Shown: positions 4,017-10,822 of the stretch, one piece after another
How positions within the stretch are numbered: the first letter of the stretch is position 1
How the letters are laid out: the number at the start of each line of letters is the position of its first letter
NCBI RefSeq assembly: GCF_027214025.1
Contig: NZ_JAPWHB010000001.1
Span: forward strand, 1 to 64,000
DNA: 64,000 nt
Direction of reading: 5' to 3'
Source of the DNA: Parahoeflea alexandrii
GTDB lineage: Bacteria; Pseudomonadota; Alphaproteobacteria; Rhizobiales; Rhizobiaceae
Notes under the pieces: model-generated
What the model was told of the DNA's origin: nothing
The model's input: only the letters and a program-made list of their open reading frames with translations
Database searches by the model: none
Position numbers and translations under genes: made by a program

Positions 4017-4901
4017 ATGCCTTCTTCCAACAGGGAGAAGTTCAAGAGTCGCCGGGCATTTAATTTGTATTTGGCAACGCTTGTCCTCGCTCCAGGAAAT
4101 GTTCTGTCGCAAACCCAAAATTCGACGACCATTCGATTCGGGCTTACCCCTGTATTCTTAAATGACGATGTTCAGTTGTTGTTAGTTATCAAGAATTATC
4201 TTGAAATCGCAACCGGATACACAATTGAACTCACGACCCGAAGGACTTACCAGGAAATCACGTCTCTGCTTGTTTCGGGCCAACTGGATGCTGCCTGGAT
4301 TTGTGGCTATCCATTTGTGAAATTTGAAAACGAATTGGAAATACTCGCTGTTCCCGAGTGGAACGGAAAGCCTTTATATCAATCCTATCTGATCACGAAA
4401 TTCGACCGGGAGGCATCAAGACTTTCTGACCTCAGAGGTGATATTCACGCCTTCTCAGACCCTGACTCCAATTCAGGTTACCTGGTTACCACGGCGTTAT
4501 TGCAAGAGAACGGCCTAAGTGCGGACACCTTTTTCAAGAAGACACTTTTTACCTATTCCCATAGAAATGTAATCCGCGCGGTGGCGTCCGGCTTGGTTCA
4601 GTCGGGCAGCGTTGATGGGTACGTTTGGGAGGTGATGCGTGAAATCGATCCAGGTCTCGTTGCCGGTACAAAGATTGTTAAGAAATCCGATTGGTTTGGA
4701 TTTCCACCTATTGCGGTGATCAAACGATTTGGTCAGACACAACAGGCAAACGCGTTGAAAAGGGCTTTGCTTTCATCAAGCGAAACCGAAGCAGGACGGG
4801 CGATGTTGGATTATCTCCGGCTTACCGGCTTTGTTGATGCGAACCCCACCTTGTTTGATTCAGTGAAGCGAAATATCGATCGGCTCGGTGGTTTGTTATG
4901 A
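4017..4901 (+). CDS. aioX: Periplasmic arsenite-binding sensor protein AioX
   Basis: A 294-residue PhnD-like periplasmic binding protein that presents arsenite to the AioS kinase. The N-terminus is basic and then hydrophobic (FNLYLATLVLAPGNVLS), consistent with a signal peptide or anchor. The only cysteine in the protein, C96 in AAWICGYPF, matches the single conserved cysteine shown to be essential in Agrobacterium AioX. A very strong ribosome-binding site (AGGAGGAGG, 4000-4008) fixes the start. The 3' end overlaps aioS by 4 bp. The aioX-aioS-aioR order is that of other alphaproteobacterial arsenite oxidisers. Confidence 0.93.
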   Translation: MPSSNREKFKSRRAFNLYLATLVLAPGNVLSQTQNSTTIRFGLTPVFLNDDVQLLLVIKNYLEIATGYTIELTTRRTYQEITSLLVSGQLDAAWICGYPFVKFENELEILAVPEWNGKPLYQSYLITKFDREASRLSDLRGDIHAFSDPDSNSGYLVTTALLQENGLSADTFFKKTLFTYSHRNVIRAVASGLVQSGSVDGYVWEVMREIDPGLVAGTKIVKKSDWFGFPPIAVIKRFGQTQQANALKRALLSSSETEAGRAMLDYLRLTGFVDANPTLFDSVKRNIDRLGGLL

Positions 4902-6355
4902 ATCCGCTTCGTCGGTTTGGCCAGCTTTCGTCTGCGTTTCGCGTACCACTGATGGTCATGCTCTTGATGACTGCGGTTTCCATCGTTTTGTCCGAGCGTG
5001 TGCTTACTCGTCTATCCCAAAATCAGGAAGCCTATTTGGAGGGATTAGCAGGGTCTTATCTGGATGGCATAGCAGCCTCGGTTTCCCCTTCGGTGCTCCG
5101 TCAGGACAGCTGGGAGGTATTTGATGTTCTGCTACGTATGAAGCCTCAAAGGGCAGCCATACAACCAAGAGAAACTGTTATCACCGATGCCAATGATATC
5201 ATTCTGGCGTCTGATAAGCCCGATGCTCATCCTACCCTGGAGCGCATGGACGCGGAATTCCAAATGGAATTTAGCGAAGGAAGAATGAGGCTTGATACAG
5301 TTTCACAGCTAGCCTTCATGGCAAGATCAATCAACCATAATGAAGAGGTTATCGGCAAGGCTTATGTGGTGTTTGACGCGTCTTATTTGCTGAACGAGCG
5401 GCGCGAAGTATTGCTGACGTTACTCCTAACAAATGCCCTGCTGACAATGTTGCTTGTTGCAATTGGTTTTTTCGTGGTTCGGCGCATGGTTCTTCCCATG
5501 CAAATACTTGAAATTCATCTGCAAAAAGCAGCTTCGGGTGGGCTGGAACCTATTTCTGATAGTGAATTTCCGGGAGCAGGAGGCGAAGCCAAGCGAATAT
5601 TTGGTGCCTTTAATCATCTTGTAAAATCGGAGAAGGGTAGGGAAGAGCTTGTGGATCGTCTCACAAAAGAAGAGCGTATGGCCAGCCTTGGAAGGATCGC
5701 GTCTGGCATGGCTCACGAGATAAACAATCCGCTTGGCGGCCTTCTGAACGCCGCAGATACCCTTGAGAAGCATGGCCATCGGGAAAAAGTACGCTTCGAG
5801 ACAATAGATTTGATAAAACGTGGACTTTTGGGAATACGTGATGTCGTTCAAGCAGCGCTTGTTACCTATCGCCCCGAGCGAAGCTCGAGAATGTTCACAA
5901 CAAAAGACCTTGAAGATGTCGCACTATTGTTAAAGCCGGAATTGACGAGCCGAACTCAGGAATTGATAATTTCTTCATCACCGTCCATTTGTTCGTTTGA
6001 TGGCCTGCCGGCCGGTCCTATGCGCCAGGCAATCATGAATCTTGTGCTCAACGCATCAAACGCTTCGCCGCATGGCGCTGATATTGTCCTGTGCGTCAAT
6101 CAATCAAAGGACGCCATCTATTTGGAGGTAAGAGATGCCGGTGAGGGATTACCTGGTGCTGTCGGTGAAATCCTTACCGCGCCTATAAAATCCGGCATTC
6201 CCGATGGAATGACCGGACTGGGCTTGTGGGTTGTTCGTCAGATAGCTGATGAACTCGGCGCAACTTTGTCGGTCAAACCCAACAATCCAAATGGCACGAT
6301 CATCGAAATTGTAATTCCGCGTCGTCCTCTGGAGGTGATTCATGCAGCCGCCTAG
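4898..6355 (+). CDS. aioS: Arsenite-responsive sensor histidine kinase AioS
   Basis: 485 residues. Layout: transmembrane segment about 15-33, periplasmic region about 35-170 that should contact AioX, second transmembrane segment about 172-195, HAMP-like linker, then HisKA with the H-box GMAHEINNPLGG, and HATPase with N box (NLVLNASNASPHG), G1 box (RDAGEGLPG) and G2 region (GMTGLGLWV). It phosphorylates AioR. ATG at 4898 overlaps the aioX stop (ATGA), and its own stop lies 14 bp inside aioR, so the three genes are translated together. Confidence 0.93.
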   Translation: MNPLRRFGQLSSAFRVPLMVMLLMTAVSIVLSERVLTRLSQNQEAYLEGLAGSYLDGIAASVSPSVLRQDSWEVFDVLLRMKPQRAAIQPRETVITDANDIILASDKPDAHPTLERMDAEFQMEFSEGRMRLDTVSQLAFMARSINHNEEVIGKAYVVFDASYLLNERREVLLTLLLTNALLTMLLVAIGFFVVRRMVLPMQILEIHLQKAASGGLEPISDSEFPGAGGEAKRIFGAFNHLVKSEKGREELVDRLTKEERMASLGRIASGMAHEINNPLGGLLNAADTLEKHGHREKVRFETIDLIKRGLLGIRDVVQAALVTYRPERSSRMFTTKDLEDVALLLKPELTSRTQELIISSSPSICSFDGLPAGPMRQAIMNLVLNASNASPHGADIVLCVNQSKDAIYLEVRDAGEGLPGAVGEILTAPIKSGIPDGMTGLGLWVVRQIADELGATLSVKPNNPNGTIIEIVIPRRPLEVIHAAA

Positions 6356-7676
6356 ACCAATGGATATTGGGATCATCGAAGATGACGCGATCATGGGCAG
6401 ATCGTTGGTTCAGCGATTTGAATTGGAAGGCCACAAAGTTGTTTGGTGGACAACCGGAAGTGACGCGGTAAATGCGACGGATTTTTTGGAAAAGGACATC
6501 ATTGTCTGTGACATCAGGCTGCCAGATATCACGGGCGAAACCGTTATGCGTCAGGCTGGGCGGAACGGTTTAGCGCCACCCTTCCTGTTTATTACCGGTT
6601 ACGGAGACATAGATCAGGCGGTCAGACTGATGCGATTGGGCGCGTGCGACTACATGACCAAGCCGTTCGAATTTGAAGAATTCATCAACCGGATAATCCG
6701 TAGTGCCCGGGGTGCCCAAAAGACAAAGAACATGACACGGCGGCTTGGCCAATCTGCGGAAATGCAGGCGCTTGAGAAAAGTCTCATCAAATTTAGTCAG
6801 ACCGATTTTCCAGTCCTAATAATTGGCGAAAGCGGCGTTGGTAAAGAATCTGCGGCCCGTTTTCTGCACGGGCAATCCAGCACGTCCGGTCACCCATTCA
6901 TGGCGGTGAACTGTGCTGCCATTCCTGCCGATTTGTTGGAGAAAGAAATATTTGGTGAGGAGCTTGGCTCACTGAATGATCACGTCAGCCCACACCGTGG
7001 ATATGCAGAACGGGTCGGCTGCGGCACGATGTATCTGAGTGAAGTCGATAGGATTCCCGTGCCGGTGCAGGCTAAGCTCATGGAACTTGTCGAGACAAAT
7101 AGCTTTACCCGAATTGGGGGATCAGCAACGATTGTATTTGCGGGCAGGATTGTCGTATCGAACAATTCTGATCTGAAGAGTGCCGTTTCCAAAGGGCAAA
7201 TGCGGGATGATCTATCGTTCCGGTTGTCTGTACTTTCTGTCGATATTTCACCCTTGAGGAACAGGCCAGAGGACGTCGAATGGCTTTTGCCTCAGATGGT
7301 GGCGACTGCCTGCAGCCGCCAGGGCCAGCTGCCAAAAACACTTTCCGCTCAAGCAGAAGAGTTTGCTTTGGCTCACGACTGGACTGGAAATGCATTCGAA
7401 ATGCGCAACCGTGTGGAACGAGCGGTTGGTTTGTCCCGTGATCAGGAACTGGCAGTCACAGATCTTTTTCCAGAATTCCACGTTGAGGACAAAAGTCACC
7501 AAGAATTTCCCTCACTGGCACAAGCTCGGGAAATGGCTGAGAAACGCCAGATTATTAGGGCTCTTGAACGATCAGGCGGTCAAATCGGAATCGCAGCAAA
7601 ACTTCTTGGCGTTTCGCGCACGACACTCTGGGATAAGATGACACGCCTCGACTTGGGTCTAAAAGAACGTTCGTAA
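6342..7676 (+). CDS. aioR: AioR, NtrC-type response regulator with degenerate AAA+ domain
   Basis: 444 residues. Receiver domain 8-120 with phosphorylation site D57, acidic pair E13-D14-D15 and K107. Central AAA+ domain with intact Walker A GESGVGKE (162-169). C-terminal Fis-type helix-turn-helix (GGQIGIAAKLLGVSRTTLWD). Odd: where enhancer-binding proteins have GAFTGA, this protein reads GSLNDH (about 209-214), and the Walker B Asp-Glu is Ser-Glu (MYLSEV, 230-235). GAFTGA is the sigma-54 contact loop, so this AioR may activate aioBA differently. It overlaps aioS by 14 bp. The likely target sites lie directly after it. Confidence 0.92.
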   Translation: MQPPRPMDIGIIEDDAIMGRSLVQRFELEGHKVVWWTTGSDAVNATDFLEKDIIVCDIRLPDITGETVMRQAGRNGLAPPFLFITGYGDIDQAVRLMRLGACDYMTKPFEFEEFINRIIRSARGAQKTKNMTRRLGQSAEMQALEKSLIKFSQTDFPVLIIGESGVGKESAARFLHGQSSTSGHPFMAVNCAAIPADLLEKEIFGEELGSLNDHVSPHRGYAERVGCGTMYLSEVDRIPVPVQAKLMELVETNSFTRIGGSATIVFAGRIVVSNNSDLKSAVSKGQMRDDLSFRLSVLSVDISPLRNRPEDVEWLLPQMVATACSRQGQLPKTLSAQAEEFALAHDWTGNAFEMRNRVERAVGLSRDQELAVTDLFPEFHVEDKSHQEFPSLAQAREMAEKRQIIRALERSGGQIGIAAKLLGVSRTTLWDKMTRLDLGLKERS

Positions 7677-7719
7677 TCCTGAACATGATGGGTGAAACCA
7701 TGTTCGGAATCCTGAACAT
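7669..7719 (+). promoter_or_regulatory. Tandem palindromic sites upstream of aioBA, likely AioR-binding
   Basis: Two copies of an 18-bp site, GTTCGTAATCCTGAACAT at 7669-7686 and GTTCGGAATCCTGAACAT at 7702-7719, differ at one base. Each has inverted arms GTTC and GAAC. They are 33 bp apart, about three helical turns. The first overlaps the aioR stop. Their place between aioR and aioB points to AioR. A partial -24/-12-like sequence (G7723...C7735, core TGCGCCTTTTATGCA) follows at once, but the -25 G is missing, so promoter type is open. Confidence 0.7.
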
Positions 7720-7834
7720 CGTGCGCCTTTTATGCATGGATGCCTGAAATTTCCTCTCAAATCGGCATTTTGATCTTCCTCCACTATTTTTGACGATGCA
7801 GACTTTACTCTCTGGGAATCTATGGGAGGATTAC

Positions 7835-8359
7835 ATGTCTCGATGCACGAAATTGGTTGATGTTGGCCGCCGTCAGTTTTTGCGGGGTGGGTCTGTTGCC
7901 GCTGCTGGCTTGGCAACTGCGGCTGTTCTGCCCGCAGCGCAAGCAAAAGCCGCACCAGCAAATGCGCAAGTCGATTATCCATCAAATAGGCTCGCCAATG
8001 TAGCTGATCTTACAGTGAACGAGCCAATGGATATCGAATATCCAGATGCTGATAGCCCCGGCGCATTGATAAAGCTCGGACAAGCGGTCGAAGGCGGTGC
8101 TGGGCCGGATGGCGACATCGTGGCATTTTCAACGTTATGCCCACACAAGGGTTGGTTACTTGCCTACAATTCAGCGGACAGCACGTACAATTGTCCGGGC
8201 CATTTTTCCCGCTTCGACGTAGAGGCAGGTGGTCAACAGGTTTGGGGACATGCCACCCAGAACCTTCCTCAATTCACCCTGCGAGTGGACGACAAAGGTG
8301 ACATTTTTGCTGAAGGCGCGAGTGACCTGATTTTCGGTCGTCCGTCCAACGTGTTGTAA
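7835..8359 (+). CDS. aioB: Arsenite oxidase small subunit, Rieske protein
   Basis: 174 residues. A Tat signal with RRQFLRGG at 12-19 is followed by a hydrophobic stretch and AQA-type cleavage region, so the folded enzyme is exported to the periplasm. The Rieske [2Fe-2S] ligands are C102-x-H104 and C120-x-x-H123. The two extra cysteines that form a disulfide in many Rieske proteins are replaced (W107 and G122), as known for some rhizobial arsenite oxidases. ATG 7835 with GGGAGG 7824-7829 is preferred to the in-frame ATG at 7790. It passes electrons from the molybdenum subunit to a cytochrome. Confidence 0.95.
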   Translation: MSRCTKLVDVGRRQFLRGGSVAAAGLATAAVLPAAQAKAAPANAQVDYPSNRLANVADLTVNEPMDIEYPDADSPGALIKLGQAVEGGAGPDGDIVAFSTLCPHKGWLLAYNSADSTYNCPGHFSRFDVEAGGQQVWGHATQNLPQFTLRVDDKGDIFAEGASDLIFGRPSNVL

Positions 8360-8374
8360 GGGGAGGAAAACATC

Positions 8375-10822
8375 ATGGCTTACAAAAGACAAATCGACCG
8401 GCTTCCCATTCCACCAAAGGATGCTACGATTCACAATGTGACGTGTCACTACTGCATCGTTGGATGCGGGTACAAGGCTTACACTTGGGATCGCAACAAG
8501 CAGGGAACTCTAACCGACAATGCCTTTGGCATTGATCTGAGTGAACAGCAGGGTGCCGATGGCACCTGGATGGCACCATCCATGTATAATGTCGTCAAAC
8601 AGAACGGCAAGGATGTGCATTTGGCTGTGGTGCCTGATCATGATTGTGTCGTGAACTCGGGACTCGGTTCAATCCGCGGCGCGCGAATGGCTGAAAACCG
8701 CCCCTCCACAGTCACTGGGACACAGCAGCAACGGCTTACTGATCCGATGATGTGGCGCTATGGCGTCTTGCAGCCGACGAGCTGGGATGACGCGCTGGAT
8801 CTCGTGGCGCAGGTTACAGCGCGCGTTGTTACCGAGGGCTCCGAGGACGATCTGGTTGTCTCAATGTTCGACCATGGTGGTTCGGCAGGTGGATACGAAA
8901 ACACCTGGGGAACTGGCAAGCTCTACTTTGAATCCATGAAGATCAAGAATTGCCGCATCCATAACCGTCCGGCCTACAATTCGGAAGTTCACTCCACCCG
9001 CGACATGGGTGTGGGCGAGTTGAACTATCAGTACAAGGACTATGAGCTGACCGATACGATCATGATCGTCGGTGCCAACCCACTGGAAACCCAGACCAAC
9101 CTGTTCCTGAATCATATGGTTCCGGGCATGAGAAATGGTGCAAGGGTTATTTTTGTTGAGCCTCGTCGTACAGTGTCAGTCAATGCTTCAGAAGAGGTGG
9201 CAGGCAAGGACAATGTTCTGCATTTGCAGATCAATACCGGGACAGACATGGCCCTGTTCAATGCGATCTTGACCGAGATTGTTGCCAAAGGCTGGGTCGA
9301 CAAGGACTTCATCGCCAATTCGACCTTCCAGGACGGCATTGCACAAGCTGAAGATGCGGGGCATCCCGCTGCACTTGGCAGCATTGAAGAGGCAATGAAA
9401 GCTTGCACCATGTCTCTGGATGAGGCGGCCGGTATCTGCGGTGTTGATGCGGCTGACATTGCGAAAGCCGCCGCATGGATCGCTGAGCCGAAAGATGGTG
9501 CGCGTCGCAAATGTGTTACCGCTTATGAAAAGGGTATTATCTGGGGCAATGACAATTACCGCACGATCGGTGCCTTGGTGAATATCGCCTTGGCCACCGG
9601 CAATGTCGGTCGCGAAGGTGGCGGCGTTTGTCGTCTTGGCGGTCACCAGGAAGGATACTACCGTCCATCGGACGCTCATGTCGGCCGCCCAGCAACCTAT
9701 GTCGATCAGCTTTTGATCAATGGTGGTGGCAAGATCCACCACATCTGGGCATGTGACCATTATAAGACCACCCTGAACGCTTCCCAGTTCAAGCGGGTTC
9801 ACAAAAAGCGCTCCGACATGGTGAAGGAAGCCATGGATGCAGCAGCTGGCGGCACCCGCGAAGACTTGATCAACGCGATCGTCGATGCCGTCAACAAGGG
9901 CGGCCTCTTTGTGGTCGATGTTGACATCATTGACAGTCAGATCGGTCAAAATGCTCATGTGGTTCTGGCCGCATGTGAATCAAATGAGATGAACCTGACT
10001 TCCATGAACGGTGAGCGTCGTTTGCGTCTATCCGAGAAATACATGGATCCGTTCGGTAACTCCAAACCAGACTGCTTGATTGCTGCCGGCATCGCCCAGC
10101 ACATGGAACGCGTACTGAACGCAATGGGCAAGGCGGATTATGCAGCCCAGTTCCAGGGCTATGACTGGATGACCGAAGAAGACGCCTTCATGGACGGCTA
10201 TAACAAGGGCAATCCGGAGGTCACCTATGAGCGTTTGCGCGCAATGGGCAACAATGGCGTGCTCGAGCCGGTTGTGGGCTTCGAAAACGGCATGCTTGTC
10301 GGCACTGAACGTCTGTATTCCAACGGCGAATTTGGAACCGGTGACAAAAAGGCCCGTTTCTGTGCTGCCGGCTGGCGTGGATGGCAGGCTGAAGGCAAGG
10401 CCGAAGAGCAAGCGAAATACAAGTACTGGATCAACAACGGTCGGGCCAATATCTTCTGGCAGAGCCAGTTCCTTGATCAGGATAATGACTTCATCCAAGA
10501 CCGCTTTCCGTTCCCGTTCATCGAAATGAATCCAGCCGACATGGCCGATATTGGCGTAGGTCCGGGAGATTTGGTCGAAATCCACAATGCCAACGGCGCT
10601 ACACAAGCGATGGTTTACCCAACGGCAACAGCACGTCGGGGCGAGACTTTGATGGTCTTTGGCTCGCCGGCTGGTTCACAGGGGAACGTAATCAACCCTG
10701 GCGTGAACGAGTTGGTTTTGCCGGACTACAAGCATACCTGGGCTGACATTCGGAAAATTTCCGATGCTCCTGCGACGGCGAAGGCGATCTCCTTCAAGTC
10801 GAAAGAGTACAAGTCAGCCTAA
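8375..10822 (+). CDS. aioA: Arsenite oxidase large (molybdopterin) subunit
   Basis: 815 residues, of normal length for AioA. It oxidises arsenite to arsenate in the periplasm at a molybdenum bis-(pyranopterin guanine dinucleotide) centre. The N-terminal [3Fe-4S] motif is C24-x2-C27-x3-C31 (CHYCIVGCGY). DMSO-reductase family domains follow (EPRRTVSVNASEE and the C-terminal dinucleotide-binding domain with GDLVEIHNANG). It has no signal of its own and is carried through Tat with AioB. It lies 15 bp after aioB with a GGGGAGG site. A strong terminator follows, so moeA is transcribed by read-through or separately. Confidence 0.97.
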   Translation: MAYKRQIDRLPIPPKDATIHNVTCHYCIVGCGYKAYTWDRNKQGTLTDNAFGIDLSEQQGADGTWMAPSMYNVVKQNGKDVHLAVVPDHDCVVNSGLGSIRGARMAENRPSTVTGTQQQRLTDPMMWRYGVLQPTSWDDALDLVAQVTARVVTEGSEDDLVVSMFDHGGSAGGYENTWGTGKLYFESMKIKNCRIHNRPAYNSEVHSTRDMGVGELNYQYKDYELTDTIMIVGANPLETQTNLFLNHMVPGMRNGARVIFVEPRRTVSVNASEEVAGKDNVLHLQINTGTDMALFNAILTEIVAKGWVDKDFIANSTFQDGIAQAEDAGHPAALGSIEEAMKACTMSLDEAAGICGVDAADIAKAAAWIAEPKDGARRKCVTAYEKGIIWGNDNYRTIGALVNIALATGNVGREGGGVCRLGGHQEGYYRPSDAHVGRPATYVDQLLINGGGKIHHIWACDHYKTTLNASQFKRVHKKRSDMVKEAMDAAAGGTREDLINAIVDAVNKGGLFVVDVDIIDSQIGQNAHVVLAACESNEMNLTSMNGERRLRLSEKYMDPFGNSKPDCLIAAGIAQHMERVLNAMGKADYAAQFQGYDWMTEEDAFMDGYNKGNPEVTYERLRAMGNNGVLEPVVGFENGMLVGTERLYSNGEFGTGDKKARFCAAGWRGWQAEGKAEEQAKYKYWINNGRANIFWQSQFLDQDNDFIQDRFPFPFIEMNPADMADIGVGPGDLVEIHNANGATQAMVYPTATARRGETLMVFGSPAGSQGNVINPGVNELVLPDYKHTWADIRKISDAPATAKAISFKSKEYKSA

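Follow-up and report, generated by a model that had tools for sequence, protein, structure and literature searches.

The aio locus and its regulator

The window analysed here is a stretch of 64,000 nucleotides from Parahoeflea alexandrii (assembly GCF_027214025.1, contig NZ_JAPWHB010000001.1, positions 1 to 64,000), in a genome of 5.54 Mb. It carries an arsenite oxidase locus on the + strand, recognised from open reading frames (ORFs), Pfam, family searches and alignment: aioX (4017..4901; periplasmic arsenite-binding protein of the Phosphonate-bd family, PF12974), aioS (4898..6355; sensor histidine kinase with HisKA and HATPase_c), aioR (6342..7676; response regulator of NtrC architecture without the sigma-54 loop), aioB (7835..8359; Rieske subunit of arsenite oxidase) and aioA (8375..10822; molybdopterin subunit). 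The position of aioR between aioS and aioBA, with aioX close by, is that of an AioR orthologue. The promoter in question lies 5' of aioB. An earlier note on this DNA had called that promoter divergent; however, aioR and aioB share the + strand, so there is no divergent transcription. The note had also suggested that this AioR is a sigma-70-type activator rather than an rpoN-dependent one, and the comparison of aio loci presented here points in the same direction.

AioR is an intact ORF of 444 amino acids, in which Pfam recognises a receiver, a sigma-54-interaction AAA+ domain and a Fis domain. Its Walker A motif is intact (GESGVGKE), and three other AAA+ motifs are replaced (all + strand): GAFTGA of the L1 loop by GSLNDH (residues 209-214, codons 6966..6983), the Walker B Asp-Glu by Ser233-Glu234 (LSEV, codons 7038..7043), and the sensor II Arg by Phe352 (codon 7395..7397). 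The retained domains and the first two replacements had been described before and are confirmed by Pfam, sequence and alignment; the loss of the sensor II Arg had been missed. The AAA+ motif names, like the weights of the sigma-54 score used below, are those that we take to apply. All 80 GAFTGA-type AioR-like proteins in the alignment keep the Walker B Asp-Glu, both Arg fingers and the sensor II Arg. Absence of GAFTGA together with presence of the receiver Asp, as found in the window AioR, is one trait expected of GAFTGA-less sigma-70 activators.

Between the window and a relative (locus L010), the ratio of nonsynonymous to synonymous substitution rates (dN/dS) of AioR is 0.12 for the whole protein, 0.05 for the receiver and 0.16 for the AAA domain, with 0.02 for AioA. 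AioR is under purifying selection, less strict than that on AioA. The intact ORF and the dN/dS values rule out a pseudogene.

Survey of aio loci

We searched for the aioB family TIGR02694 in overlapping genome sets: the order (397 genomes), the class (385), the family (394), the phylum (398), two host families (69 and 8) and a third group (18). AioR was searched in 61 relatives, and AioA and AioR in a plasmid collection, from which alone the named Rhodobacterales come. A single-protein search of genome contigs gave L010, a full relative, and L011, which matches in the receiver alone. Mainly high-scoring aioB matches were fetched: 36 regions for the order (57 genomes over the cut-off), 9 for the class (19), 44 for the family (50), 6 for the 69-genome host family (17), 1 for the third group and 7 for the phylum (13, several seen before). 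The remainder is mostly of a lower-scoring aioB type (about 90-136 bits). In the end, 103 AioR sequences were extracted and aligned.

A locus was counted where aioB had at least 150 bp upstream on the same stretch as AioR, giving 97 loci, which are not a random sample. Outside the count are 15 first-set and 9 later loci whose fetched stretch has aioB and shows no AioR, L087 (the same locus of a metagenome-assembled genome (MAG) as L010), L011, five loci with an AioR-like protein and no aioB (L138, L165, L166, L167, L172), L144 (an arx locus, treated separately) and L154, the loop of which is not seen because its contig has only the AioR C-terminus. L115 is counted as lacking the loop although its fragment starts after it; the rest of the protein places it in clade D (see below), and it is on no tree.

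The supposition that other AioR proteins carry the same kind of change proves correct, as the alignment contains further proteins without the loop (loop-minus). Conservation in these was assessed on 20 proteins, those of the counted loci with L144 replacing L115: D14, D15, D57, T85 and K107 of the receiver are conserved in 20/20 and the Walker A Lys in 19/20.

Palindromes before aioB

Two putative AioR sites of the form GTTC-N8-GAAC precede aioB on the + strand, a distal one, GTTCGTAATCCTGAAC (7669..7684), and a proximal one, GTTCGGAATCCTGAAC (7702..7717), 33 bp apart. They are the only zero-mismatch matches in the 64 kb, so the two tandem sites noticed earlier stand. AioR of Agrobacterium tumefaciens GW4 has been footprinted on a palindrome of the same form that precedes mcp, GTTCGGATTTCCGAAC (PMC5335332). 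A palindrome is retained before aioB in all 20 loop-minus loci. The earlier note held the sites to be closer than a usual sigma-54 enhancer, an argument that fails: the start of the proximal site is a median 134.5 bp from aioB in the 20 loop-minus loci versus 135 bp in 73 loci with the loop (loop-plus), and a shift of the palindromes toward the gene was dropped as an explanation. In loop-plus loci, the spacing between the proximal palindrome and the sigma-54 box, measured to its TGGC, peaks at 59-63 and 68-73 bp, with a few outliers; the peaks differ by about one helical turn.

Loop status and the sigma-54 box

A sigma-54 -24/-12 score above 8, a cut-off picked after seeing the data, is found before aioB in 77/77 loci with a GAFTGA-type AioR and 0/20 loop-minus loci, an agreement of 97/97. 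In the first set, with no cut-off, p<=0.05 against dinucleotide shuffles is reached in 72/73 loop-plus and 0/15 loop-minus loci. Under another rule for the aioB start, 75/77 loop-plus loci score above 8, the starts of L074 and L149 being misplaced (by that rule or by tblastn) according to their sequences. Fifteen extracted AioR proteins have Ser for Thr in the loop; all come from loop-plus loci, every one of which keeps the box.

No -24/-12 box is found at the window aioB promoter. The absence of a good GG-N10-GC there had been remarked on before and is upheld: the degenerate candidate then proposed, TG-N10-GC (7722..7735, + strand; T7722-G7723-N10-G7734-C7735), lacks the first G, and the score of the 16-mer that holds it is at the level of dinucleotide shuffles (p 0.41). 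Loss of sigma-54 from the organism can be rejected, since there is one rpoN match in the genome and 5/6 other strong regulators of this family there keep GAFTGA or GAFQGA. One regulator of the same genome (L006, G000:C10:257470-257961), possibly NtrX, has no GAFTGA (FGTESAASHERK) and keeps the Walker B Asp-Glu. As judged from these comparisons, a sigma-54-independent action of AioR at aioB is well supported.

Four loop-minus clades

The loop-minus proteins fall into four clades: A (window, L010, L055), B (L053, L054, L151-L153), C (L050, L052) and D (five named Rhodobacterales plasmid records, L140-L144, plus L063, L070, L132, L157 and L158). Recorded strains of clade D include Paracoccus seriniphilus DSM 14827 and Rhodobacter sp. 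CZR27. Parsimony gives four loop changes on the first AioR tree, on the AioS tree and on a 95-row AioR tree. The first AioR and AioS trees and the constraint tests predate loci L150-L172, which the 95-row tree adds; there, the four groups have support of 98-100 in the Shimodaira-Hasegawa-like approximate likelihood ratio test (SH-aLRT). Within AioR, clade A joins 11 GAFTGA-type proteins (SH-aLRT 91, quick tree). Some altered AioR proteins have long branches in the AioR tree. A single loop-minus clade, when forced on the AioS tree, is rejected by the approximately unbiased (AU) test (p 3.3e-5). The ATP-hydrolysis residues are altered in clades A and D and part of clade C, and are kept in all five members of clade B.

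A -10-like box at a near-fixed distance from the palindrome

In the loop-minus loci of clades B, C and D, a TAnnnT sequence resembling a -10 box lies downstream of the proximal palindrome. In a discovery set of 12 loci its distance from the palindrome centre is 90-92 bp in clade D (8/8), 85-86 bp in B (2/2) and 83 bp in C (2/2); shuffled sequences match the clade result in 0/5000, 83/5000 and 77/5000 cases, respectively. Pooled, 12/12 have TAnnnT at 83-92 bp, a range set by eye on these same 12 loci, versus a shuffle mean of 1.1 and a maximum of 5 in 2000. Of the loop-minus aioB loci added later, 5/5 fit (L151 85, L152 84, L153 86, L157 89 and L158 92 bp), with a shuffle-chance product of 5e-7. 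Overall, TAnnnT is found at 83-92 bp in 17/20 loop-minus loci (17/17 in clades B, C and D) versus 2/73 loop-plus loci with a site. The palindrome score threshold was 15 in the discovery count and 17 in the final one; at 15, a chance site of L010 is taken as proximal. In clade D, the spacing between TAnnnT and palindrome is nearly fixed, while the distance from palindrome to ATG is variable.

Several further features are seen around these boxes. In Cereibacter azotoformans (L144:9219-9405), the operon that follows a clade D regulator is arx-like, encoding a 4Fe-4S protein, a molybdopterin oxidoreductase and NrfD, and is not aioBA; the spacing at this arx promoter is 90 bp. The clade B loci (L053, L054, L151, L152, L153) have a conserved inverted repeat of about TTGCANYGCAA, followed by A/T-rich sequence, some 30 bp upstream of TAGnnT. 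It lies at the position expected for a class II activator, about -42 by eye. In clade D there is a loosely shared stretch between palindrome and TAnnnT (CTTGCCGC in L143, CTTATTGC in L115, and similar in others), perhaps a degenerate second AioR site.

The window's own candidate promoter and its relatives

The preferred candidate for the -10 box of the window is CAGACT (7799..7804, + strand), 89 bp from the palindrome centre. In a three-way alignment, CAGACT of the window and L010 stands opposite TAGTTT of L154, at 90 bp. A second candidate, TATTTT (7785..7790, + strand), is 75 bp from the palindrome centre and corresponds to TATTCT in L010. It was demoted from first choice to alternative, as L154 lacks it and has TAGTTT opposite CAGACT. 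L055 shows neither candidate.

Over 4898-10822, L010 (MAG SI054_bin61) has AioA 96% identical to that of the window, AioR 82% and AioS 77%, so that evolution is more rapid in the regulators than in the enzyme. The aioB of L154 (G1200:C339), from another family of the same order, is 87% identical to that of the window, above the window's own genus, which suggests transfer of the aio island. On the + strand 5' of aioX are ORFs that we take, by eye, to be arsR, arsC and acr3.

Interpretation and alternatives

The window AioR is best read as a phosphorylation-controlled activator that would still use the usual palindromes, would no longer remodel sigma-54 RNA polymerase and would act at a sigma-70-family promoter; to this we give a probability of roughly three in four. 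The 97/97 agreement of loop and box and the TAnnnT spacing in three sister clades support the sigma-70-type control proposed before, as far as sequences can. In outline, arsenite would be sensed by AioX and AioS, and AioS would phosphorylate AioR at Asp57, as expected from the family. AioR would assemble on both palindromes, probably with ATP bound but not hydrolysed, in line with a retained Walker A and the missing Walker B Asp and sensor II Arg. Activation would then occur at a promoter of the sigma-70 family that has a weak -35; its -10 box would lie some 90 bp downstream from the proximal palindrome, which would place AioR near -100. The change in the window would be one of four parallel ones, each with loss of both loop and -24/-12 box and retention of the palindrome.

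For the family as a whole, we consider it rather probable that there have been at least four parallel conversions of sigma-54 into sigma-70 activator-promoter pairs. In each, the palindrome would stay, L1 loop and -24/-12 box would disappear together, a -10 box would lie at a clade-specific, near-fixed distance (83, 84-86 or 89-92 bp), and the ATP-hydrolysis residues would decay only afterwards. This decay is placed after loop loss because clade B still has the residues examined.

Several observations weigh against this interpretation. The margin of the sigma-54 score is thin around its post hoc cut-off, the top loop-minus locus reaching 7.4 (L143) and the bottom loop-plus locus 8.5 (L059), and the looser pattern [TC]GGC-N8-[TC]G[CAG] at -90 to -20, present in 74/77 loop-plus loci, is also found in 2/20 loop-minus loci. 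A single loop-minus clade forced on the AioR tree is not rejected (AU p 0.335). The independent pairs number three, on starred branches, and all are in the predicted direction (sign test p 0.25); with only four changes and three pairs, this test cannot reach significance. The five later loci with a fitting TAnnnT come from clades B and D, which also supplied discovery loci, and are therefore not independent. No conserved -35 is seen with the TAnnnT boxes, and strict TAnnnT at 83-92 bp is found in 0/3 counted clade A loci (window, L010 and L055).

Three other explanations were considered. AioR could be a repressor or an inert remnant, with aioBA read through from aioXSR or transcribed from a constitutive promoter. 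All five aio genes are co-directional, aioX to chlE are reported to form one operon in A. tumefaciens 5A (PMC3834237), and Caulobacter NtrC, which has no GAFTGA, both represses and activates (PMC10274813). However, all 20 loop-minus loci keep the palindrome, AioR is under purifying selection, and the clade D spacing is near-fixed despite the variable distance to ATG, so that we regard this explanation as unlikely. It appears highly improbable that a remodelled L1 loop lets AioR still use sigma-54 at the degenerate TG-N10-GC. The genome has rpoN, and the loop tolerates some change, as the 15 Ser-for-Thr proteins show. Against this, the candidate is indistinguishable from shuffles and starts 114 bp from aioB, versus 41-76 bp in 72/73 loop-plus loci; AioR has neither the Walker B Asp nor the sensor II Arg; and not one of the 20 loop-minus loci exceeds the score cut-off.

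There is also a slim chance that AioR activates the promoter of another sigma-70-family sigma factor, of RpoH or EcfG type. The lack of a conserved -35 with the TAnnnT boxes leaves room for this. TAnnnT with a weak -35 has the look of an activator-dependent housekeeping promoter, which counts against another sigma factor. In Rhizobium sp. NT-26, an RpoE2 promoter is reported beside the RpoD one before aioXSR (PMC6011840), in favour of it.

If activation from a sigma-70-family promoter is the correct reading, the loop-minus loci would provide a series of naturally occurring intermediates in a regulator's change of sigma factor. In the published model, control of arsenite oxidase by AioXSR depends on rpoN; 20/97 AioR-bearing aio loci should depart from it, and loop status would predict which. 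Protein and promoter co-vary repeatedly within one orthologue family, and one clade keeps those ATPase residues that were examined, which makes the order of the steps testable.

Comparison with known systems

To our knowledge, change of a sigma-54 into a sigma-70 activator is known only from single cases (NtrC, VpsR). A literature search excluding most subscription journals found no paper with both AioR and GAFTGA; AoxR with GAFTGA gave PMC2848651, and three of AioR, arsenite oxidase, sigma70 and RpoD together matched PMC6011840 (on the NT-26 aioXSR promoters) and PMC4563254. The aio records of NT-26 and Agrobacterium have the same gene order, aioXSR-aioBA, as the window. The AioR/AoxR proteins of Herminiimonas arsenicoxydans, Agrobacterium and NT-26 share with it the receiver-AAA-Fis architecture and palindromes upstream of aioB, but differ in that GAFTGA and a TGGCAC...TTGC box are kept there. 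In H. arsenicoxydans, AoxR contains GAFTGA and depends on rpoN, and a start with a -12/-24 motif has been mapped (PMC2848651). Dependence on rpoN is cited for A. tumefaciens 5A, and 12 aioXSR-linked aioBA operons in one survey have palindromes and -24/-12 regions (both PMC3834237).

Further likenesses are with Rhodobacter capsulatus NtrC, Caulobacter NtrC and Vibrio cholerae VpsR, all without GAFTGA and reported at sigma-70 promoters (PMC10274813). In R. capsulatus NtrC, GAFTGA is lost, phosphorylation is needed, and ATP binding but not hydrolysis is essential, which fits the window AioR, with its intact Walker A and missing Walker B Asp; R. capsulatus NtrC belongs to another regulator family with another signal, and its function is reported, whereas that of the window AioR is deduced. 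Caulobacter NtrC has GAFTGA deleted from L1 but requires its Walker A and Walker B residues; the window AioR has lost the Walker B Asp, whereas clade B keeps both motifs. VpsR has the same architecture, but reportedly needs neither phosphorylation nor ATP. AioR would be a GAFTGA-less activator of a kind already known, distinguished by the repetition of the change and the matched change in its promoter.

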